This document shows, piece by piece, positions 5,697-37,780 of a stretch of DNA of 48,970 bases. The DNA lies in IMG/VR virus record IMGVR_UViG_3300042691_009229, positions 1-48,970 of that record; one strand, written 5' to 3'. This DNA comes from a virus. The translations under genes and the position numbers were made by a program. The number at the start of each line of letters is the position of its first letter. Within the stretch, counting starts at the first letter, position 1. Under the pieces are notes generated by a model. It was not told the DNA's origin and searched no databases. It was given only the letters and a program-made list of their open reading frames with translations.

Positions 5697-6092
5697 ATGA
5701 GTACATTTGAACACTTTGATCTTTTGGTCAGAAACTTTTTTGATTCAACTGCTGAATTTAGATCCGCATTTGATTCTAAAATACAATATCCAGTAGACAT
5801 TTATGAAACAGCATCTGGTATTGTTTTTGAAATAGCAGCTGTAGGAGCTGATAAAGAAGATATCGCTATATCAACCCAAGGCGATGTTTTAAGAGTTACA
5901 TATAATAAAGAAATAGCCAGATCTGGCAATTATATTAAGCAATCTATTGCCAAACGTAACTTCGATTTAGGGTGGAGATTATCATCTAAATTTGACTTAG
6001 GTAAAATTGAGGCTAAATTAGAGAAAGGATTACTGCATTTAGAAATTCCTTATATATCTAAAGCAACACCTAAAACAATTGAAATTAAGTAA
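5697..6092 (+). CDS. hsp20: Hsp20/alpha-crystallin small heat shock protein
   Basis: A 131-residue small heat shock protein. The alpha-crystallin domain spans about residues 28-125: 'YPVDIYETASGIVFEIAAVG' (strands 2-3), 'DIAISTQGDVLRVTY', then 'FDLGWRLSSKFDLGKIEAKL' and 'KGLLHLEIPY', matching the family's 'F.L...vd...i.A.l.nGvL.i.lPk' end. It is an ATP-independent holdase that protects unfolded proteins. Hsp20 genes are common in T4-like cyanophages and other marine phages. The GGAGG ribosome-binding site suggests strong expression. The AT-rich gaps on either side (about 75 nt each) show no late motif. Confidence 0.85.
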   Translation: MSTFEHFDLLVRNFFDSTAEFRSAFDSKIQYPVDIYETASGIVFEIAAVGADKEDIAISTQGDVLRVTYNKEIARSGNYIKQSIAKRNFDLGWRLSSKFDLGKIEAKLEKGLLHLEIPYISKATPKTIEIK

Positions 6093-6165
6093 TAAGTTAT
6101 AGTAACTGACCCGTAGATCATTAACTTTTACTTGATATCCGAACAAATAACCCCCATTTTACAGT

Positions 6166-6375
6166 ATGAATTTAATAGTATTCCAGGATAAATTATACTA
6201 CGTTAAACGAACGGTATTAGAGTCAAAATTAAGACCCGATTTTAATAATGATACGTTCCGTCAATGGACTAGAACAGATATAATATTACGTAAAGATGGT
6301 ATTATATATGCATGTGAATTAATTGCAGATGCTGTTATTGAATCAGAAACTTCCGAAAACTTTTTTGGTGAATAA
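6166..6375 (+). CDS. Unrecognised small protein
   Basis: A 69-residue protein (MNLIVFQDKLYYVKRTVLES...) with a mixed strand/helix pattern and an acidic C-terminus. No domain is recognised. It lies between hsp20 and the UV-damage endonuclease with no clear ribosome-binding site. Confidence 0.55.
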   Translation: MNLIVFQDKLYYVKRTVLESKLRPDFNNDTFRQWTRTDIILRKDGIIYACELIADAVIESETSENFFGE

Positions 6376-6392
6376 TTTGGATTCGTACATCA

Positions 6393-7484
6393 ATGTACTT
6401 ATCTTTAAGATCTAAATTAAAATATATGAATAATAATGTTAGGTTAGGTTATGCATGTGTCAATCAGACCTTGACTAATCGACCAAAAAAATTAGGTGGC
6501 CGTGTTACTACGAGTCGTACCTTACGCAAAGCTTCTTGGCATAGTAATTTTGATCTGCATAAGATTGGTGAGCTAGCTGTACAGAATGCTAAGGATTTAC
6601 TTACTTATCTTAAGTGGAACGAAGAGCATGGTATTCGTTTGTTTCGTGTAGGTTCTGAGCTTGTTCCATGGCATGATCATTTTGAGCTACACGACTTGCC
6701 TCAGTATGACTTATTGTCTATGCATCTTAAGTTAGCTGGTGATTATGCTAAGGCCCATGGGCATCGATTGACTACTCATCCTGGTCCATTTCATATCTTA
6801 GGTGCGCATGATGATGAGATTGTACGTAGAAGTATTATTGGTCTTGAGCGTCATTCTGAATTATTTGACCTTATGGGCTTTGAGCCTTCATATGAGAACA
6901 AGATCAATATTCATATCGGTGCTGCTTACAAAGATCCTGAGACTACTGCATATCGTTGGCTTAAGAATTATGACCGGTTATCTGATAACTGTAAAGCTCG
7001 ATTAGTAGTAGAGAATGACGATAAGGACTCTTTATATAGCGTTCAGATGTTACATGATCTTATCTATCGTAACGTCCAAGTACCTATTACCTTTGATTAT
7101 TATCATCATAAGTTTCATACTAGTGGTTTATCCGAGCAAGAAGCGCTGGAGTTAGCAGGTACTACCTGGCCTTCCAATGTACGCCAATGTTGTCATTATA
7201 GCGAATCTCGTCGACAAGAATATCAACTTATGTTTGATACGATGTGCCGTAACAATAACAAGACAATAGAAGAATTAGTTACGTTTCCTACTTTTGCTAA
7301 GATGAAAAAAGATTTTGATAAGATCAAAGAGCAGGCACATTCTGATTATATTATACAGCCAATTCAGACTTATGGGCATAATTTAGATATCATGCTTGAG
7401 GCTAAGGCTAAGGAGTTAGCTTTACTTAATTATCAGTATCTACCTGAACTAAATATATATACAAAAGAAAAGGAGTTAATATGA
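6393..7484 (+). CDS. uvsE: UV-damage endonuclease, UVDE/UvsE family
   Basis: A 363-residue TIM-barrel UV-damage endonuclease, which nicks DNA 5' to UV photoproducts and some other lesions. Family signatures: 'RLGYACVN' at residues 17-24, 'LFRVGSELVPW' near 83, 'RLTTHPGPFHILG' near 125, 'INIHIGAAYKD' near 172, 'RLVVENDD' near 203, and 'VPITFDYYHHKF' near 230. These supply the His, Glu and Asp metal ligands. The core begins at GYACVN, so a start at ATG 6426 is also plausible. The gene uses GAG for glutamate and CTT for leucine far more than its neighbours, a sign of separate origin. It overlaps the next small gene by 4 nt. Confidence 0.88.
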   Translation: MYLSLRSKLKYMNNNVRLGYACVNQTLTNRPKKLGGRVTTSRTLRKASWHSNFDLHKIGELAVQNAKDLLTYLKWNEEHGIRLFRVGSELVPWHDHFELHDLPQYDLLSMHLKLAGDYAKAHGHRLTTHPGPFHILGAHDDEIVRRSIIGLERHSELFDLMGFEPSYENKINIHIGAAYKDPETTAYRWLKNYDRLSDNCKARLVVENDDKDSLYSVQMLHDLIYRNVQVPITFDYYHHKFHTSGLSEQEALELAGTTWPSNVRQCCHYSESRRQEYQLMFDTMCRNNNKTIEELVTFPTFAKMKKDFDKIKEQAHSDYIIQPIQTYGHNLDIMLEAKAKELALLNYQYLPELNIYTKEKELI

Positions 7485-27844: not shown

Positions 27845-29605
27845 ATGCCAGCAGTACCATACGTATTTAGACCTGTAAAGTCTGGTGATGTACAATTAAG
27901 GCCGTTCAAAGCTTATAAAAGTTATACATTACAAAGTAATACTGACTATTCAAGTTCTGGTTATCGTGTGCATGATGCAATATATAAGCGTCCTCCTATA
28001 CATGTAGGAGTTGATAGTTATAATTATCCTATTAATGCAAGTGACGGTACTAACCAACATGTAGTTTGGAGTAATATCGATCATAGATATTATCACTATC
28101 CATACGATATTAGCAGATGTCATGAACTAACAAATAATCGTGTTACAGAAAAATACTTAAACATATCAGCTAGTATACTTACTATTCCTTATTTTGATAT
28201 TGGCGAAAAAATTAAACCGGGTAGTGTTAATATAAATGGAATTGTTAATGGTATTAACATTTTACTACAAGATGATGGCCATGGAAATTTAAGAGATATG
28301 GCTATATTAACAGCTTCATTTGCAAGTGCTAGTAGTCAGATATTATATGCTTCATTTAATAATGCGTTCCGAGATACTGAAGTAGGTAGTAATTTATCAC
28401 TGTTAAATGTAAAAGTAGATAATATAAATGTTAATGCTACTGTCAATAATGTACGATTAACAGAAGGATTAGAATTACATACTAATATTAATACATCATC
28501 ACCAAACGATTTAGATTCTAGAAGTGGTTATTTGGGATTTATACCAACTAGTACAGCGGGGTATGTACAAATACCACATCATGATATTTTTAATCGGTTT
28601 AATAGAACAGACCATTGGACAATATCATTTTGGTACAGACAGGCATTAAATAAATATAATAATAACGGTACTATTATATCTAAAGCATTTCAGCGTACCA
28701 ATACTCAAATAATTAACGGAGTGCGTAGCTTTGTAACTCAAAGTATAACACCGCCCGTAGATGCATCTATAGTTGGTTCATACAATCAAATACAAACACC
28801 GTTTCATATCTTTACTGATACGGTAGGTTCTACTGATTGTATATGTTTTAAAGCTAGTAACGGTAGTAGTGAATTATTCATATCAGGCGCTATTAGTTAT
28901 AGTACTACATTAAGTTGGGAACATTTTGCTTTTGTAAATGATGGCGAATTTGTACGTATGTATATTAACGGTAATTTACATCCGCTTAGTGGTAGTTTAC
29001 CTTTAACTGGTAGTACTGCAAATAACGCCGATGTTATGATGTTTTCCGCTAATACACAGTTTGATAATCCAATTGATAATGCATATTTAGGTGAGGTACG
29101 TATGTATGATTATGCATTATCAACATCGGAAATACAATCATTAAGTAATAGACATTATATATCTGCTTCATTATATCAAACAAATGTAGCTGGTAATATA
29201 TTTTATCGTAATGGACAGATAGTATTATCATCACCTTTATCAAAATATCACTCTGGTTCAAGCTTTTTTAGTAATGAATGGACGGCCTCATGGAAAGGTA
29301 CACATACTATATATGAAAATGAAGTAATGGTACGTATACCAGCTGATCAATTTAATTATTCAGTTAATCCAACAGTGACGTACCGGCCGGCTATGGCTGT
29401 CGATTCGACTAGTGAAATTGAAAAACAAAATGGACCAGGTTCATTATATAAATCAATATTTACAGGTAGTTTAGCTAAGCCATATATTACTACTATTGGT
29501 TTATATAATGATAAAGCACAATTATTAGCTGTCGGTAAATTAGCCCAACCAGTTCAAAAACGTGATGATGTTGACATGAATATTATAGTTCGTTGGGACT
29601 ATTAA
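27845..29605 (+). CDS. Structural protein with LamG-like domain and GLYND module
   Basis: A 586-residue protein. Residues ~240-425 look like a LamG/concanavalin-type sandwich: 'RTDHWTISFWYRQALNKYNN', 'HFAFVNDGEFVRMYINGNLH' and 'DNAYLGEVRMYDYALS', a recurrent glycan-binding fold. The C-terminus (FNYSVNPTVTYRP, then PYITTIGLYNDKAQLLAVGK, 'LAQPVQK') repeats the module of the preceding protein. The N-terminus is Tyr/His-rich. It is a plausible receptor-binding or decoration protein; glycan binding is inferred from the fold. Confidence 0.65.
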   Translation: MPAVPYVFRPVKSGDVQLRPFKAYKSYTLQSNTDYSSSGYRVHDAIYKRPPIHVGVDSYNYPINASDGTNQHVVWSNIDHRYYHYPYDISRCHELTNNRVTEKYLNISASILTIPYFDIGEKIKPGSVNINGIVNGINILLQDDGHGNLRDMAILTASFASASSQILYASFNNAFRDTEVGSNLSLLNVKVDNINVNATVNNVRLTEGLELHTNINTSSPNDLDSRSGYLGFIPTSTAGYVQIPHHDIFNRFNRTDHWTISFWYRQALNKYNNNGTIISKAFQRTNTQIINGVRSFVTQSITPPVDASIVGSYNQIQTPFHIFTDTVGSTDCICFKASNGSSELFISGAISYSTTLSWEHFAFVNDGEFVRMYINGNLHPLSGSLPLTGSTANNADVMMFSANTQFDNPIDNAYLGEVRMYDYALSTSEIQSLSNRHYISASLYQTNVAGNIFYRNGQIVLSSPLSKYHSGSSFFSNEWTASWKGTHTIYENEVMVRIPADQFNYSVNPTVTYRPAMAVDSTSEIEKQNGPGSLYKSIFTGSLAKPYITTIGLYNDKAQLLAVGKLAQPVQKRDDVDMNIIVRWDY

Positions 29606-29614
29606 TATTTATAA
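29606..29614 (+). promoter_or_regulatory. Putative late promoter motif TATTTATAA
   Basis: TATTTATAA directly after the previous stop codon, with 14 nt to the ATG at 29629 and AAAAAAGGA as ribosome-binding site in the spacer. Confidence 0.5.
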
Positions 29615-29628
29615 AAAAGGAACGAGTT

Positions 29629-30081
29629 ATGGCATGGAATAGTAAGTCTAAAGTACGAGCTAACGCAATCAAATACGGTTATAGATCCGGATTTGAACAT
29701 AAAATTTCTGAACAGCTTGAACAACAAAATATCAATCCACAGTATGAAACTACAGTAGTTAAGTATACTATACCAGCGCGTGATTCTAAATATACAGTCG
29801 ACTTCACATTACCTAATGGTATCCTTGTAGAGACTAAAGGTAGGTGGATGCCAGATGACCGTAAGAAACATTTACTAGTAAAAGAACAACATCCGGAGTT
29901 AGATATTCGTATCGTGTTCCAAAGTGCTAAAAGTAAACTACGTAAAGGTAGTAAGACAACCTATGCAGATTATTGTGACAAACATGGTATTCAGTGGGCG
30001 GAAAAAACAATACCACAGTCATGGATCGATGAAGAAAAAAAAGCAGACAAAAAGGTTGATCTTTTGAAAAAGTTTTTATAA
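29629..30081 (+). CDS. Endonuclease I (T7 gp3-type Holliday junction resolvase)
   Basis: A 150-residue protein close to T7 endonuclease I (149 residues), which cuts branched DNA such as four-way junctions. Strong matches: 'YGYRSGFEHKISEQLE', 'QYETTVVKYTIP', 'KYTVDFTLPNGILVETKGRW' with 'DDRKKHLLVKEQHPELDIRI' and 'KHGIQW'. The active-site set is present: Glu23, Glu40, Asp58, Glu68 and Lys70, matching T7 E20, E35, D55, E65 and K67. ATG 29629 is the right start by family length. In T4 this role is taken by gp49, so this is a replacement by a T7-type enzyme. Debranching before packaging would fit late expression. Confidence 0.92.
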   Translation: MAWNSKSKVRANAIKYGYRSGFEHKISEQLEQQNINPQYETTVVKYTIPARDSKYTVDFTLPNGILVETKGRWMPDDRKKHLLVKEQHPELDIRIVFQSAKSKLRKGSKTTYADYCDKHGIQWAEKTIPQSWIDEEKKADKKVDLLKKFL

Positions 30082-30178
30082 ATTCATTTATATAAATTTT
30101 CAATTGAAAGTTATTGAGATTGAAACATTGTTGTATATTATATGACAATGCTAATATTAATAATATTAATAATATATA
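30082..30178 (+). other. AT-rich intergenic region with palindromes and tandem repeat
   Basis: Two abutting perfect 12-bp palindromes, ATTTATATAAAT (30086-30097) and TTTCAATTGAAA (30098-30109), follow the endonuclease I stop. A 9-bp TAATATTAA is tandemly repeated (30152-30160, 30161-30169, with a partial third copy) right up to the primase start. No ORF fits here. It could hold a promoter or operator for the replication genes, or a weak terminator. Confidence 0.5.
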
Positions 30179-31105
30179 ATGAGTAAGTTATCGGTTATTT
30201 CTCTTCTCGAATCTGTTCTTGGTAAAAGTCGCCAATCAACTGACGATAATTTAGCTTTTCATTGTCCATTCTGTCATCATCATAAACCTAAGTTAGAAGT
30301 TAATATCGTAACTCAACATTGGCATTGTTGGGTATGTAATGCGGCTGGTAGAAAGATACCTATCTTATTTCGTAAACTTAATACACCTCGAGAAAAAGTA
30401 GCTCAATTAATTAAACTACTAGATGGTGTAGAATATAAGCCTACTAAGACTACAACGGATACACCTGTAGTTGAACTTCCTAAAGAATATCGACCATTAT
30501 GGGTTATGGATAAAGCTAATCCTGAGTATCGTAACGCCGTACGTTATTTACTTAACCGTGGTATTACTATTCATGATATACTAAAATACAGAATTGGATA
30601 TTGTGAAACTGGTCAATATTCCGGTAAGATAATTATTCCTAGTTATGATGCTAATGGTAGTCTTAATTATTTTGTAGGTCGTGCCTATTATGAATCAGAT
30701 GGCATGCGTCATAAGAATCCAAAAGTATCAAAAGATATAATTGGATTTGAACTGCATATAAACTGGAATATGCCAATTATATTAGTAGAAGGCGCATTTG
30801 ATGCGATTGCTATTAAACGTAATGTTATTCCATTATTTGGTAAAACTATTTCAAATACACTTAAGAAACGTATTGTAGAACGTAAAGTGAAAACTATATA
30901 CATATGTCTAGATCTAGATGCTAGAAAACAAGCACTTGAAACAGCTGAGTATTTTATTAATAACGGTATAGATGTATACTTTGTAGAACTAACTGGTAAA
31001 GATCCTAGTGAATTAGGATTTGAACAGACTAAACATATACTAGATGCTACAACTAGATTAACAGAACAGAATTTAATGCAAGAAAAGATATTATGCGCAC
31101 TATAG
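30179..31105 (+). CDS. gp61: DnaG-type primase, T4 gp61-like
   Basis: A 308-residue primase. The N-terminal zinc ribbon has Cys29-Pro-Phe-Cys32 and Cys50-Trp-Val-Cys53 (CX2C-X17-CX2C). The TOPRIM domain follows: 'ILVEGAFDAIAI' with Glu204 and 'YICLDLDARK' with Asp245 and Asp247 as metal ligands. The length matches T4 gp61 and mitochondrial/phage short primases. It makes RNA primers for lagging-strand synthesis; no helicase lies next to it in this window. It overlaps the following recombination gene by 13 nt, so the two are probably translated together. Confidence 0.88.
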   Translation: MSKLSVISLLESVLGKSRQSTDDNLAFHCPFCHHHKPKLEVNIVTQHWHCWVCNAAGRKIPILFRKLNTPREKVAQLIKLLDGVEYKPTKTTTDTPVVELPKEYRPLWVMDKANPEYRNAVRYLLNRGITIHDILKYRIGYCETGQYSGKIIIPSYDANGSLNYFVGRAYYESDGMRHKNPKVSKDIIGFELHINWNMPIILVEGAFDAIAIKRNVIPLFGKTISNTLKKRIVERKVKTIYICLDLDARKQALETAEYFINNGIDVYFVELTGKDPSELGFEQTKHILDATTRLTEQNLMQEKILCAL

Positions 31106-34100
31106 ATATTGGGTTACCTACCATAGATAAAATTTTTCATATTGCTGATGTACATGTACGTAATGTAAAACGTCATACAGAATATGAGCAAGTATTTAAA
31201 CGATTATATAAATACATTAAGAAACATAAAACGGATAATAGTGTAATTTACGTTGCTGGCGATATTGTACATGCTAAGACAGATATGTCACCGGAACTAG
31301 TACATTGTGTATCAGATTTCTTTAGCAGTTTAGCGGCCATTGCGCCTACATTAATTATTACTGGTAATCATGATTGCAACTTAAATAACTCCCATCGTCT
31401 AGATGCCATTTCCCCTATAGTTAAAGCCTTAAATGACTCCAATATACACTATCTTAAAGATAACGGTATATACTATATTTCAGGCATACACTTTAACGTT
31501 ATGTCAGTGTTTGAAAAGCCAGCGAACTATATAAAAGCTAGTGATTTTACAGGTAATTATAAGATTGCATTTCACCATGGTGCAGTAAATTCTGCAGAAA
31601 CTGATATGGGCATGACATTGAGTAATACTCATGTTACAACTGAATTGTTTGAAGGGCATGATTTAGTATTATTAGGTGATATTCATAAACCGCAATTCTT
31701 AAATAAGAATAAGACAATTGCATATGCTGGTAGTTTAATACAACAAAATTTTGGCGAAGGACTTCACCATGGCATCATGGTATGGGATCTGGCTACACGT
31801 TCTTGTGAATTTGTTGAAATAGGAAATGATTATGGTTATTATACATTTGATATTGATAACGGAGTAATACAAAACCCAGCTACGGTAATGCCTAAAAAAC
31901 CTAGAATTCGTTTAAAGGTTAAAGATACAGATTCGGGTACGCTTAAAACGATAGTAGCTGAAATAAAACATAAATACAAAGTACAAGAAATTACCATACA
32001 GAAAGTTAATCCATTATCATCTGTTACTGCTGGTAAAAGAATATCATTTGGTAATGTACGTGATGTAGAATGGCAAAACACGGTAATATCAGATTACCTA
32101 TCTGACGAATTAGCATTAGATGACGCCATGCTTGACTGTGTACGTCATATCAATCGTACGGTATTTTCAAAACTACCAGATTCTGAGTTAACTCGCAATG
32201 TAGTATGGGTGCCAAAATATTTTGAATTTAGTAACATGTTTAGTTATGGCGATGATAATCATGTTGACTTTGCTAATATGTCAGGTACATATGGATTGTT
32301 TGCTCCTAATGCTTCTGGTAAGTCTACATTGTTAGATGCTTTAGCATTTTGTTGTTTTGATAAATGTAGTCGTACTAATAAAGCTGTTCATGTATTGAAT
32401 AATAAATGCGATCGTTTTGCTAGTAAATTTACATTTGATCTAGACGGTAAGACATATGTAATTGAACGTAATGGTAAAAAGCAAAGTAACGGGCATGTTA
32501 AAGTAGATGTAGAATTTTATCATGTAGATGATACTGGTAATATTACATCATTAAACGGTGACCAACGTGATTCTACTAATAAAATAGTACAACAGTACTT
32601 AGGTACATATGAAGACTTTGTATTAACGGCACTATCACTGCAAAATAATAATACTGGATTTATTGACATGTCTCAAAAAGATCGTAAAGACTTATTGAGT
32701 CAGTTTTTAGATATCAATGTATTTGAAAAACAGTATCAGATCGCAGCTGATGATAGTAAAGACACTGCCGCATTAATACGGGAATATAAACGAACTGATA
32801 TAGGTACAATATTGGCAGATGCTGAACGTATCATATCACATACATCTCAAAGTTACAATGAATTGTTAACTGAAAAACAAACAGTTGATCGTATGAAGGA
32901 TGATATTAATGATCAGATTATTGATCTGTCAAAACAACTACGTCCTATAGATGATAATATAAAACACCCAGAGCAACTACAAACGGCATATCATACCATG
33001 CTGTCAGAATTAGATACATTAAAAGAGACTGTTACGGCTATTGAAACAGATATTAACAATCAACAAGATATTGTAGATTCATGGCGTAATAATGTAGCAG
33101 AATATGACATTACAGAAATACGTAGTAATATTATTACTGAAGAACAAAATAAAAAACGTTTAGCTGAGTTAACTACAAAATTACAAGTATTACAACAACA
33201 AATATCACATGCTAACCGTATGGTTGATAAATTAGATAATCATAAGTGGGATCCAAATTGTGAATATTGCATGGCTAATCCATGGTTACATGATACTAAA
33301 TTGGAGGCCGAAAAATTACCAAAACTACAAGAAGAACATGATAATCTATTAATTGAAATTGCCGATATTAAAGTTAATTTTCCAACAGTAAGTGCTACTA
33401 ATTTATTAAATGGGTATCAAGTAGCAGAACAACGTTTACATACTGAAGAACAAAAACTATCGACACTGACAAATAAACTAAATAGTACATTATTAACAGT
33501 ACAATCTAGTGAAGATAAGATTACTCGATTAGTAGAGCTAATAAAAACAGCTGAAGACCGTATTACTGATATTGAAACTAATAAACAACTAGAATCTGAA
33601 ATATCAGAACTTCAAAGTGAAGTAACATACTTAACATCAGAACTTAAACAAGTAGATAATCGTTTATTAGAATGTTCTGGTAAACTTCATGCTGCGGAAA
33701 CAGCTAAGCAAAATGCTATACGAGATATTGAGCGGTTAACTGAGTTAGAAGTACAGTACAAAGCATATGAATATTATCTACAAGCAGTTAAACGTGACGG
33801 CGTACCGTATCAATTAATAGCTCGAGCATTACCACAAATTGAAGCCGAAATAAATAATATATTAACGCAGATAGTAGATTTTACTGTTATATTAAATACT
33901 GATGGTAAAAATATACATGGCTTTATTGTATATGATAATGATAATTATTGGCCAATGGAACTAACATCCGGTATGGAAAAGTTTATTGCATCTCTTGCAA
34001 TACGTACGTCATTGATTAACGTCAGTAGTTTACCTAGACCTAATTTCTTAGCTATTGATGAAGGGTTTGGTGTACTTGATTCGGATAATTTGAATAGTAT

Positions 34101-34245
34101 GTACATGTTGTTCGACTACCTTAAATCTCAGTTTGGTTTTATTATGTGTATATCTCATATTGATGCTATGCGTGATGTAGTTGATAAGCTTATTGAGATT
34201 AAAAAAGAAAACGGGTACTCTAAAATAAATTACTCATATTTATAA
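31093..34245 (+). CDS. gp47-gp46: Fused Mre11/SbcD-like nuclease and Rad50/SbcC-like ATPase
   Basis: A single 1050-residue ORF. Residues 1-~270 are a calcineurin-type nuclease: Asp19/His21 (ADVH), Asp57/His60 (GDIVH), Asn92-His93-Asp94 (GNHD), His161-His162 and Asp196/His198 (GDIH). Residues ~370-1050 are an SMC-like ATPase: Walker A 'APNASGKST' (404-412), coiled coils, zinc hook Cys723-x-x-Cys726, signature 'LTSGMEKF' (957-964), Walker B 'FLAIDEGFG' with Asp989-Glu990, and His1022 of the H-loop. T4 gp47/gp46, E. coli SbcD/SbcC and Mre11/Rad50 are separate chains; here they are joined through a linker near residues 330-370. It resects DNA ends for recombination-dependent replication. Confidence 0.88.
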   Translation: MRTIDIGLPTIDKIFHIADVHVRNVKRHTEYEQVFKRLYKYIKKHKTDNSVIYVAGDIVHAKTDMSPELVHCVSDFFSSLAAIAPTLIITGNHDCNLNNSHRLDAISPIVKALNDSNIHYLKDNGIYYISGIHFNVMSVFEKPANYIKASDFTGNYKIAFHHGAVNSAETDMGMTLSNTHVTTELFEGHDLVLLGDIHKPQFLNKNKTIAYAGSLIQQNFGEGLHHGIMVWDLATRSCEFVEIGNDYGYYTFDIDNGVIQNPATVMPKKPRIRLKVKDTDSGTLKTIVAEIKHKYKVQEITIQKVNPLSSVTAGKRISFGNVRDVEWQNTVISDYLSDELALDDAMLDCVRHINRTVFSKLPDSELTRNVVWVPKYFEFSNMFSYGDDNHVDFANMSGTYGLFAPNASGKSTLLDALAFCCFDKCSRTNKAVHVLNNKCDRFASKFTFDLDGKTYVIERNGKKQSNGHVKVDVEFYHVDDTGNITSLNGDQRDSTNKIVQQYLGTYEDFVLTALSLQNNNTGFIDMSQKDRKDLLSQFLDINVFEKQYQIAADDSKDTAALIREYKRTDIGTILADAERIISHTSQSYNELLTEKQTVDRMKDDINDQIIDLSKQLRPIDDNIKHPEQLQTAYHTMLSELDTLKETVTAIETDINNQQDIVDSWRNNVAEYDITEIRSNIITEEQNKKRLAELTTKLQVLQQQISHANRMVDKLDNHKWDPNCEYCMANPWLHDTKLEAEKLPKLQEEHDNLLIEIADIKVNFPTVSATNLLNGYQVAEQRLHTEEQKLSTLTNKLNSTLLTVQSSEDKITRLVELIKTAEDRITDIETNKQLESEISELQSEVTYLTSELKQVDNRLLECSGKLHAAETAKQNAIRDIERLTELEVQYKAYEYYLQAVKRDGVPYQLIARALPQIEAEINNILTQIVDFTVILNTDGKNIHGFIVYDNDNYWPMELTSGMEKFIASLAIRTSLINVSSLPRPNFLAIDEGFGVLDSDNLNSMYMLFDYLKSQFGFIMCISHIDAMRDVVDKLIEIKKENGYSKINYSYL
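34237..34245 (+). promoter_or_regulatory. Putative late promoter motif TATTTATAA
   Basis: TATTTATAA overlaps the last codons of the Mre11-Rad50-like gene, ending with its stop codon. It leaves 16 nt to the ATG at 34262. Overlap with coding sequence makes chance occurrence possible, but the spacing fits the other sites. Confidence 0.5.
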
Positions 34246-34261
34246 GAAAATGAGGATATAA

Positions 34262-37200
34262 ATGCCGTTACGTAAACGTGTAGGTTATTTTGGCTTACGT
34301 GATTTATCTTATTCAATAATAGATACTAGTGAAAATTCACCAAACTTTTTTCGGATAATTGAATTTCCTGAAAAGTTTAAAGCTGGTAAAAATCTTATTA
34401 AGATATCAGCAAATCGTGAATATTTAGTTGATGGTAGTGAAATACATATTGAAATACTAGATTATAATAATAACCCAGTTTATTACGAACCTATCCGTTA
34501 CGTAGAAAAAGATGGTACACGTGTAATTGCAGTTTATATCTACCCGGATACATCGCCAGGTGATTGTACTGTATTTTTAGCAGGAAGGGCTTCTCAAGAC
34601 CCCAGTACTGGTAATCTATATCGTTTTAGTAAAAATAGTAATGACGCTGATTATTTTCAAGTACCAAATGTTATTTGGTCGCGTAAATGTAATGTAGCAC
34701 CAAAGGCATCAAACGATATTGAAATAATATTCACACAACAACCTAGAGTTACTATAACAGAAATAGTACAGCCTTATTTGCAACCAGTTAATTTAACTAA
34801 TATATTTACTCAGGTAAGTAGTAGTGGTACTATATCATTAAGTACTCCATCTACATTAGCACGTACAGGGCTTACTGATATTGATAGTTCAGTTGCAGAA
34901 GGAGCAGGGTCTACTCGTACGCCGTCATTCGGTAGACAATTTTATAATAATAACACTGTACAGTCGCAATTAACTGATACATCTGCAGCAGTTACAGTAT
35001 CTCCGACACTGCAAACTTTAACTGGATACTCCACTGTAACAACTAGTCAGCCATTTTTCTCAGCAAGTATGGTTAACGGTACGTTAACTGTAAAAAATCC
35101 GATATTGACTATTAGTGGATTAACGGCTGGTGCTAATAATTTAGTATATCCAGCATCGCAGTTTAATGAAACAACTAATGATTATGGAGGTGCGACACGC
35201 GCATTGAGCGGTTCATATGATTTTGCAATCGTACAGGTACTTAATAATACATCAGCACGTGTATCACAAATTGGTGGATTTCTTAATGGTGAAGATACAT
35301 TAGGTCAATTTAATGTTAGTTTGTTGTCTGTTGGAACATCTGGTACATCAATTCGTGATTCGCGTGATTATACATTATATAACGTAAATAGTTTTAACGC
35401 GTCTTCAGATTTTACAGCTAGTTTTATAAAGCCTTCTGAAGTAATATACACCGAAAATTCTGCTAGCTTTGCTGATATTATATTATCAAATACAGAACCA
35501 GCAACCGGCGATGTATATCGTATTAAAACATTATTTAAACCTAGTGGTCAATTTGGTGATTTTATTGATTTAGGTGATACTATAGTAGAACAGACAGATA
35601 TATTAATTGATACAAGTTCTTTAGAAACTAATGTAACAGTTGGTTCATATTATGAAAATTTTGGAACAATAGAAAGTTTATCTGAAATAAACACATACTG
35701 GACAGCATCGGCATTGGGTACAATTAGTACATCTAATCCAATGACCATTGCATATGATATGGATACACTAGTCGGTGGAATAAAAATGACACCTACAACT
35801 ACTGCGTTTCAAGATAATGATGCGGTTATATTATCAATTAAACCACAATATAATCCAAGAGTATATAAAGATACGGAATATATTGTAGTATTTAATATAG
35901 CAAATACATCTAATATAACATCATTTTCATCGACAAATACTAATATACCTAATGCGCGTTTAGATGTTTATATATCCGGATCTGCGGTTACATCTCAAGA
36001 AGCATTTAAACGAGTCACTACCGGTGATGTACTACCAGTAAGTAATTTTAATTCGACGGTTATTAATAATTTTAAAGATAATGGAGTACTAGGTTCACGT
36101 ATTGGTACATATGAAACAACTAAAGTACCAGAAGCAAATGCTACAGTAACATTTAGATTTATTGCAACAGAAGATAAACCTATTGATTTAAAATTTGTAA
36201 CACGTCATGGTGCATTTATAATAAGTGATATTCAAGTTTTGGCTAATCAAGAGACTGGATTTTCACCTAATTATATACGTATTAATAAAAGAATACCGAC
36301 AGAGCATCTTAAAACGCCATTAACGTTTAAGTTTCAATATTTTGATTTTCGTGGACGTAAAGCTGATACTGAAACTATAGCTTATGGTGCGGTATTTGAT
36401 GGCGATAACACATATATAAATGGTACTAATAATCTATTAACAGGCTCTGTATATATAGGTAATGGTATTGGTACTGGTATTGAAATGGCCGGTGTAAATT
36501 CAGGTTTTATACGTTCGATAGGATATGAAGGATTTATATCAGCATCAGATCCAGCAAAAGGTGGCGCACCCGGATGGATGTTGTATTCAGGATCAGTACT
36601 ACCAAATTCGGGTGATAATTATTCAGGTGTAGGACTTGAACTAGTTGCTGGATCTGATAATTACTTTAAATACGGAACGTCAAATGGCGGCTCATTAGAA
36701 GTACGTACTAACAAATTCTTTTTAGGTAGTGCTAATCAATTTATTTCTGGGGCAAATGGTAATATAGAAATATCATCTAGTAATTTTCATTTAACTGCTC
36801 AAGGTAATGTAACAGCATCAAATGCATTATTTACTGGTGTGGCATTAGCAAATATAATACGCGATAAAACCGTAGTTATAACAGCCGCAAACTCTGCTAG
36901 TTATTTTGACCGTTATGATTATAGTAGTAATCTAGGCGACCAGTGGGCATATTGGTTACGATTAGATGGTAACAATGGCGGAGAGCAAGTACGACGTGTG
37001 ACAATTAATTGTGATTTATTGTATCCATTAGGAAAAATTGCATTTCCTAGTTTAGGTAATAGTTCTAGGATTGATATTATTATAGAAAATAACGTAGCCG
37101 GTAATGAAATTTTAGATATATTCAATGTTGAAAAAGGTACTATCACAAATCCAGCTAGAGTATCATTACCAGCAGGAGCCGTAATGCAACTTGCCTCTGT

Positions 37201-37780
37201 ATTTCCTGGTACATCACAAACAGATTGGAATTGTATTGGTGGTAGTATACAGCCATTCTCTGGATATACATATAAACGCGGTGTAATTGTAACAGGTTCG
37301 TTAGAAGTTACGGGTTCATTAATAATGAACAACAATAAGCAGTTTAATCATGGAGCTTTTAGTAATACATCTAGCATAACAAATCCAGGGGCTAATGTAT
37401 CGGCTTCATTTACATATACTACGGTAGATGTTGCTGACGGTATAACGTATACAAACAACTCTCGTATACAATTTCCGAATGATGGAGTATACAATATACA
37501 ATTTTCAGCTCAAATAGATAACATCAGCGGAGCAGATGATGTGTATATATGGTTAAAGAAAAACGGTCAGAATATTGCAAATACCGCAACACAAATAACT
37601 GCCGCAAATAATATAACAACTGTTGCAGCATGGAATTGGGTATATTCATTTTTAAACGCTGATTATGCGGAAATTGCATGGCAAACTAGCGCAGGAAATG
37701 CTATAATTGATGCATTCCCTGCCTTAGGGAACATACCAGCTATACCAAGTGTAATAGTAACCGTAACGCAAGTAGCGTAA
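34262..37780 (+). CDS. Tail fibre-like large structural protein
   Basis: A 1172-residue protein. The N-terminal ~130 residues ('RVGYFGLRDLSYSIIDTSEN', 'PVYYEPIRYVEKDGTRVIAV') are a beta-rich attachment-type region. A Thr/Ser/Asn-rich repetitive shaft follows. Around residues 815-865 it has 'GGSLEVRTNKFFLGSANQFI', 'SGANGNIEISSSNFHL', a pattern I recall from tail fibres of marine T4-like phages. The last ~130 residues ('IQFPNDGVYNIQFSAQIDNI', 'DDVYIWLKKNGQNI', 'WQTSAGNAIIDA') resemble a C1q/TNF-like jelly-roll head, a likely receptor-binding tip. It is preceded by a late motif. Confidence 0.75.
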   Translation: MPLRKRVGYFGLRDLSYSIIDTSENSPNFFRIIEFPEKFKAGKNLIKISANREYLVDGSEIHIEILDYNNNPVYYEPIRYVEKDGTRVIAVYIYPDTSPGDCTVFLAGRASQDPSTGNLYRFSKNSNDADYFQVPNVIWSRKCNVAPKASNDIEIIFTQQPRVTITEIVQPYLQPVNLTNIFTQVSSSGTISLSTPSTLARTGLTDIDSSVAEGAGSTRTPSFGRQFYNNNTVQSQLTDTSAAVTVSPTLQTLTGYSTVTTSQPFFSASMVNGTLTVKNPILTISGLTAGANNLVYPASQFNETTNDYGGATRALSGSYDFAIVQVLNNTSARVSQIGGFLNGEDTLGQFNVSLLSVGTSGTSIRDSRDYTLYNVNSFNASSDFTASFIKPSEVIYTENSASFADIILSNTEPATGDVYRIKTLFKPSGQFGDFIDLGDTIVEQTDILIDTSSLETNVTVGSYYENFGTIESLSEINTYWTASALGTISTSNPMTIAYDMDTLVGGIKMTPTTTAFQDNDAVILSIKPQYNPRVYKDTEYIVVFNIANTSNITSFSSTNTNIPNARLDVYISGSAVTSQEAFKRVTTGDVLPVSNFNSTVINNFKDNGVLGSRIGTYETTKVPEANATVTFRFIATEDKPIDLKFVTRHGAFIISDIQVLANQETGFSPNYIRINKRIPTEHLKTPLTFKFQYFDFRGRKADTETIAYGAVFDGDNTYINGTNNLLTGSVYIGNGIGTGIEMAGVNSGFIRSIGYEGFISASDPAKGGAPGWMLYSGSVLPNSGDNYSGVGLELVAGSDNYFKYGTSNGGSLEVRTNKFFLGSANQFISGANGNIEISSSNFHLTAQGNVTASNALFTGVALANIIRDKTVVITAANSASYFDRYDYSSNLGDQWAYWLRLDGNNGGEQVRRVTINCDLLYPLGKIAFPSLGNSSRIDIIIENNVAGNEILDIFNVEKGTITNPARVSLPAGAVMQLASVFPGTSQTDWNCIGGSIQPFSGYTYKRGVIVTGSLEVTGSLIMNNNKQFNHGAFSNTSSITNPGANVSASFTYTTVDVADGITYTNNSRIQFPNDGVYNIQFSAQIDNISGADDVYIWLKKNGQNIANTATQITAANNITTVAAWNWVYSFLNADYAEIAWQTSAGNAIIDAFPALGNIPAIPSVIVTVTQVA

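Follow-up and report, generated by a model that had tools for sequence, protein, structure and literature searches.

The window analyzed here, a linear virus record of 48,970 bp that represents a fragment, carries a gene that we read, with a probability of about 0.82, as encoding a single-chain R555-like Mre11-Rad50 of a contractile-tailed phage, which would act in ATP-gated end processing for recombination-dependent replication. Mre11 and Rad50 are usually separate proteins. The observations behind this reading are an intact open reading frame (ORF), its catalytic motifs, its predicted fold, a conserved linker length, and a conserved gene order. As baseplate wedge, terminase, and portal genes are present in the window, a contractile-tailed phage is the most likely bearer.

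The fused Mre11-Rad50 (SbcD-SbcC) gene spans positions 31093 to 34245 on the plus strand, where all features of the cassette described below also lie, and consists of a single ATG-started frame of 1,050 codons (1,050 aa) to its stop with no stop inside, exactly as claimed by a sequence-only reading that preceded this study. The nuclease and ATPase motif residues listed by that reading were all found at their positions, and its domain identities, nuclease-to-ATPase order, and completeness of both halves were borne out by motifs and by Pfam and PHROG matches. The calcineurin-type nuclease core (residues 13 to 232, positions 31129 to 31788; Pfam, motifs, and AlphaFold2) contains D19/H21, D57/H60, N92-H93-D94, H161-H162, and D196/H198. 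Two of these assignments stood in part: H162 is invariant but H161 is not conserved (H, F, or Y among relatives), leaving H162, not H161, as the candidate metal ligand, and D196 is correctly placed but is not the canonical residue, which is His in T4 gp47 and in Herelleviridae. In the second half of the protein, the Rad50 ATPase N-lobe (residues 371 to 541, positions 32203 to 32715; Pfam, motifs, and AlphaFold2) holds the Walker A motif APNASGKST (404 to 412), and the C-lobe (residues 900 to 1050, positions 33790 to 34242; PDB relatives, motifs, and AlphaFold2) holds the signature LTSGMEKF (957 to 964), the Walker B pair D989-E990, and H1022. Between the two lobes, AlphaFold2 places an ascending coiled coil (residues 542 to 722, positions 32716 to 33258) and a descending one (residues 727 to 899, positions 33271 to 33789), separated by the CxxC hook CEYC (residues 723 to 726, positions 33259 to 33270; motif and alignment). 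The whole Rad50/SbcC set (Walker A, signature, Walker B, His switch, and CxxC hook) is present, with the signature reading TSGME in a departure from the canonical form.

These motifs are conserved over 94 aligned rows of relatives, one of which duplicates the window protein, and the hook cysteines C723 and C726 are found in 94 of 94 rows. Moreover, the protein matches Pfam Metallophos at residues 13 to 200 (E = 1.2e-8), Pfam AAA_23 at residues 380 to 607 (E = 9e-12), and a PHROGs SbcC-like family at residues 375 to 1047 (E = 4e-50), and its sequence relatives in the PDB are E. coli SbcC, archaeal Rad50, and T. maritima Mre11. Thus, these E-values and the motif conservation over the 94 rows exclude chance motif matches.

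The fusion is real and intact. A first scan returned 15 viral contigs at 56 to 84% identity, each with one open frame across the match, a profile scan returned at least 540 relatives, the best 80 of which were kept, and a scan of genome contigs added seven more loci, most of them on short MAG contigs of probable viral origin. Altogether, both domains span the junction within one frame at 102 loci, a count that leaves out the window's own locus and one interrupted locus (L018, see below) and that, being drawn from the best-covered matches and phage records, is not an unbiased ratio of fused to split genes. Apparent stops in the ranges of some relatives correspond to natural gene ends. An assembly artefact or a missed frameshift joining two genes, which the sequence-only reading had named as a way for its claim to fail (a missed stop or indel), is refuted by these independent contigs with the same single frame; published phage genomes are among the 102 loci, and Sphingomonas phage PAU gp288 and Tenacibaculum phage PTm1 ORF-075 are single genes too, so that the probability of such an artefact is practically nil. 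In a plasmid search, only partial ATPase or nuclease matches were obtained.

The AlphaFold2 model, built from 56 sequences, reached a mean pLDDT of 82.7 and a pTM of 0.46, indicating that each domain is well predicted but that the model does not fix how the domains are arranged relative to one another. In the predicted order along the chain, the nuclease is followed by a capping-like region, a pair of helices, an 11-residue linker, and the Rad50 head from residue 371; a coiled coil of ~175 residues runs on either side of the CxxC hook. The capping-like region (residues 237 to 305, positions 31801 to 32007) was delimited from the AlphaFold2 secondary structure and would correspond by its position to that of Mre11. 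The helices at residues 325 to 340 and 344 to 359 occupy the place of the Mre11 helix-loop-helix (HLH; residues 325 to 359, positions 32065 to 32169), the C-terminal element that in the family anatomy binds the Rad50 coiled coil (PMC3175470). The linker (residues 360 to 370, positions 32170 to 32202; AlphaFold2 and alignment) is 11 residues long in 92 of 94 aligned rows. For the T. maritima complex, the distance to be bridged was calculated as ~28 angstroms, i.e., 9 to 12 residues (PMC3175470), a range into which the linker falls, with the capping and HLH region also present. Foldseek searches with the model recovered both the Mre11 and the Rad50 folds, matching among solved structures E. coli SbcCD, Chaetomium MRN, and the T. 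maritima and M. jannaschii Mre11/Rad50 complexes. Full-length matches were the giant-virus fusions of Tupanvirus, Harvfovirus, Yasminevirus, and Catovirus, together with Tenacibaculum phage proteins; mimivirid proteins ranked at the top (Tupanvirus, 26% identity, Foldseek E = 5e-74).

The ORF might nevertheless yield two chains, if translation began internally or the product were cleaved near residues 330 to 382, and hence an ordinary two-subunit complex; the sequence-only reading had pointed to residues 330 to 370 for such an event. The conservation of M382 in 92 of 94 rows speaks for such a start, but this residue sits inside or immediately behind the first ATPase strand (371 to 380), and T4 gp46 carries a Met at the same place. 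Upstream of it, the 94-row alignment has no conserved Met between residues 300 and 381, the fourfold-site synonymous divergence from relative L001 is 0.56 to 0.57 at residues 301 to 400 with no dip at the junction, and the linker length is fixed. A Shine-Dalgarno (SD) scan found no SD-like motif at start codons inside the ORF, an absence that weighs little because merely 19 of the 43 window genes have one. An internal start in the suspected region is thus unsupported, and we hold a two-chain product to be highly improbable. If the chain stays whole, the fusion fixes the nuclease-to-ATPase stoichiometry at 1:1.

The gene order around the fusion is also conserved. A T7-type endonuclease I of the Holliday junction resolvase family (29629 to 30081; Pfam and PHROG) lies directly upstream of a DnaG-type primase of 308 aa with a zinc ribbon and a Toprim domain (30179 to 31105; Pfam and PHROG), the end of which is overlapped by 13 nt by the start of the fused gene, an order that agrees with the neighbors reported in PMC3175470. 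The primase ends at most 150 nt from the fused frame in 89 of the 102 loci having a primase match. Upstream of the primase, relatives carry a nuclease whose family varies among four that are unrelated to each other: T7-type endonuclease I (74 loci, counting the window), a PD-(D/E)XK protein (10 loci; matches to PDDEXK_15 and to the PHROG "RusA-like Holliday junction resolvase"), a SegE-type GIY-YIG protein (5 loci), or a RuvC-like protein (1 locus); no slot nuclease was found in 5 loci, and in another 5 the contig did not reach far enough. We infer that all four act as resolvases here, the primase and the fusion being accompanied by an exchangeable "resolvase slot" (positions 29629 to 30081 in the window; relatives L017, L018, and L056 to L104). 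Such an exchange of nucleases supports a recombination role of the cassette.

Several other observations were made around this cassette. In nine relatives (L056, L059, L069, L070, L071, L074, L085, L103, and L104), which probably form one clade, the DxH motif reads DIQ, so that Gln replaces the metal-ligand His21; the resolvase slot is occupied by the PD-(D/E)XK protein in every one of them, and the motif change may signal an altered nuclease. At positions 5998 to 6831 of a Bacteroidales MAG contig (L106), the nuclease half has a stand-alone relative (36% identity); a primase lies nearby, and no Rad50-like half follows immediately downstream. Within the window, the endonuclease I, primase, and fusion genes lie between a LamG-domain gene and a large unassigned gene that probably encodes a tail fiber (27845 to 37780), and a second endonuclease gene is found at 6393 to 7484 (phrog_8420, E = 9e-44). 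Microcystis phage Mel-JY01 and the 484-kb phage LR756508 share the upstream structural protein, which ends in GLYxxxxxLxAVGKL.

We propose the following model, in which dimerization, ATP gating, cis docking, substrate, and pathway are transposed from knowledge of Mre11-Rad50 and T4 gp46/47. Two copies would pair through their nuclease and ATPase heads into a homodimer, the HLH of each chain holding the coiled coil of that same chain at its root by way of the 11-residue linker. ATP binding would engage the heads and restrain the nuclease, and ATP hydrolysis would open the nuclease for the processing of DNA ends tethered by the CxxC hook. The resulting 3' single strands would feed recombination-dependent replication, with the adjacent primase providing priming and endonuclease I resolving branches ahead of packaging. 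The location of the fusion module among tail genes, not replication genes, counts against this role. It would rather suit a protein with another main job, namely, breakdown of DNA from the host or a competitor, or the trimming and resolution of concatemers for packaging, as the module is set among tail and packaging genes and T4 gp46/47 is also annotated as required in host-DNA degradation. The conserved association of the fusion with primase and resolvase genes, however, indicates replication and recombination, and the two kinds of role are not mutually exclusive; we therefore consider degradation or packaging unlikely to be the main job. A bolder proposal, rather doubtful at this stage, would make these proteins a distinct regulatory class of Mre11-Rad50, defined by a linker of 11 residues locking the nuclease to its own ATPase, a His-to-Asp metal site, the SGME signature, and a cassette with swapped unrelated resolvases. 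For the model proposed above, D196 in place of the usual His is a further point against, as the metal chemistry could differ.

Whatever its main job, a single-chain Mre11-Rad50 would allow ATP gating to be studied in a homodimer of two polypeptides instead of a four-chain complex. The novelty of a nuclease-to-ATPase fusion implied by the sequence-only reading does not hold, because it was described in 2011 by Yoshida, Claverie, and Ogata, who reported Mre11/Rad50 fusions for Mimivirus R555 along with twelve further sequences (PMC3175470), and several sequenced phages carry fusions. Besides Mimivirus and a Bacillus phage, the carriers described were bacteria, plasmids, and eukaryotes; in aquatic viral metagenomes, R555 homologues were shown to be abundant, and the scaffolds bearing them also encode phage primases and T7-like endonucleases (PMC3175470). 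Those marine sequences were partial, whereas the whole gene and its neighborhood are available here. What is new is the set of full-length aquatic phage members with their gene neighborhood, which supplies what the 2011 paper was missing and ties the fusion to a primase and interchangeable resolvases.

SbcC and SbcD are near-universal in jumbo phages according to a 2021 survey (PMC7824862). The fused protein can be compared with the enzymes encoded by two genes. T4 gp47/gp46 and their Herelleviridae counterparts (EF24C, Twort, and P59) are the same two enzymes with the same short phage-type coiled coil and the same likely pathway, but they are encoded by two genes, their nuclease reads GHxH instead of the GDIH of the fused family, their signature is of the SEGE or SAGE type instead of SGME, and their head domains are only 19 to 24% identical to those of the fusion. 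The Asp at position 196 is invariant in the fused family, but it occurs in a split homologue from a Vibrio phage too, so this residue is not exclusive to fusions. E. coli SbcD and SbcC have similar folds in separate chains, and NCBIfam scores far under the cutoffs (84.5 versus 478.5 for TIGR00618 and 35.9 versus 77.65 for TIGR00619) place the protein outside the canonical bacterial SbcC/SbcD. In a maximum-likelihood tree of the head domains, 23 fused proteins, of which that of the 735-kb phage LR756501 is the most divergent, are set apart, at 100% support, from the five split pairs of phages; with the tree unrooted and the split sample this small, the topology is consistent with one fusion event for this family.

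Among published phages, Mel-JY01 (42% identity over 99% of the protein) and LR756501 (~27% identity) have both halves in one gene, as here, and so do Sphingomonas phage PAU (gp288), Tenacibaculum phages pT24/PTm1, and Chryseobacterium phage MA9V, which were seen only with LR756501 as the query. Mel-JY01 and LR756508 also share with the window a primase and a nuclease upstream. LR756508 differs in that an insertion (L018, 6590 to 7690) breaks its fused gene inside the nuclease, just after GDIHK; the insertion holds an endonuclease-like ORF (TnsA-like fold and HNH-family PHROG match), its flanks sit in different frames, and an Rfam search of it detected no group I or II intron. It could be an unrecognized intron, or a homing endonuclease could have split the gene again. 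The closest described group remains that of R555, whose features include the GDxxH motif and an Asp replacing His206 of Pfu Mre11 (PMC3175470). The window protein shows the motifs of that family (D19-H21, G56-D57-H60, G91-D94, and G195-D196-I-H198) and shares with it the N-to-C order, the Asp for Pfu Mre11 His206, the capping-plus-HLH arrangement, and the short linker; like the marine homologues of 2011, it has a primase and a T7-type endonuclease as neighbors on a phage-like scaffold. Since gene order, GDxxH, and the Asp match that description, the protein is a full-length addition to a described family, unlike R555 itself in its phage host range and in its shorter coiled coil, for a length of 1,050 aa versus 1,351 aa.
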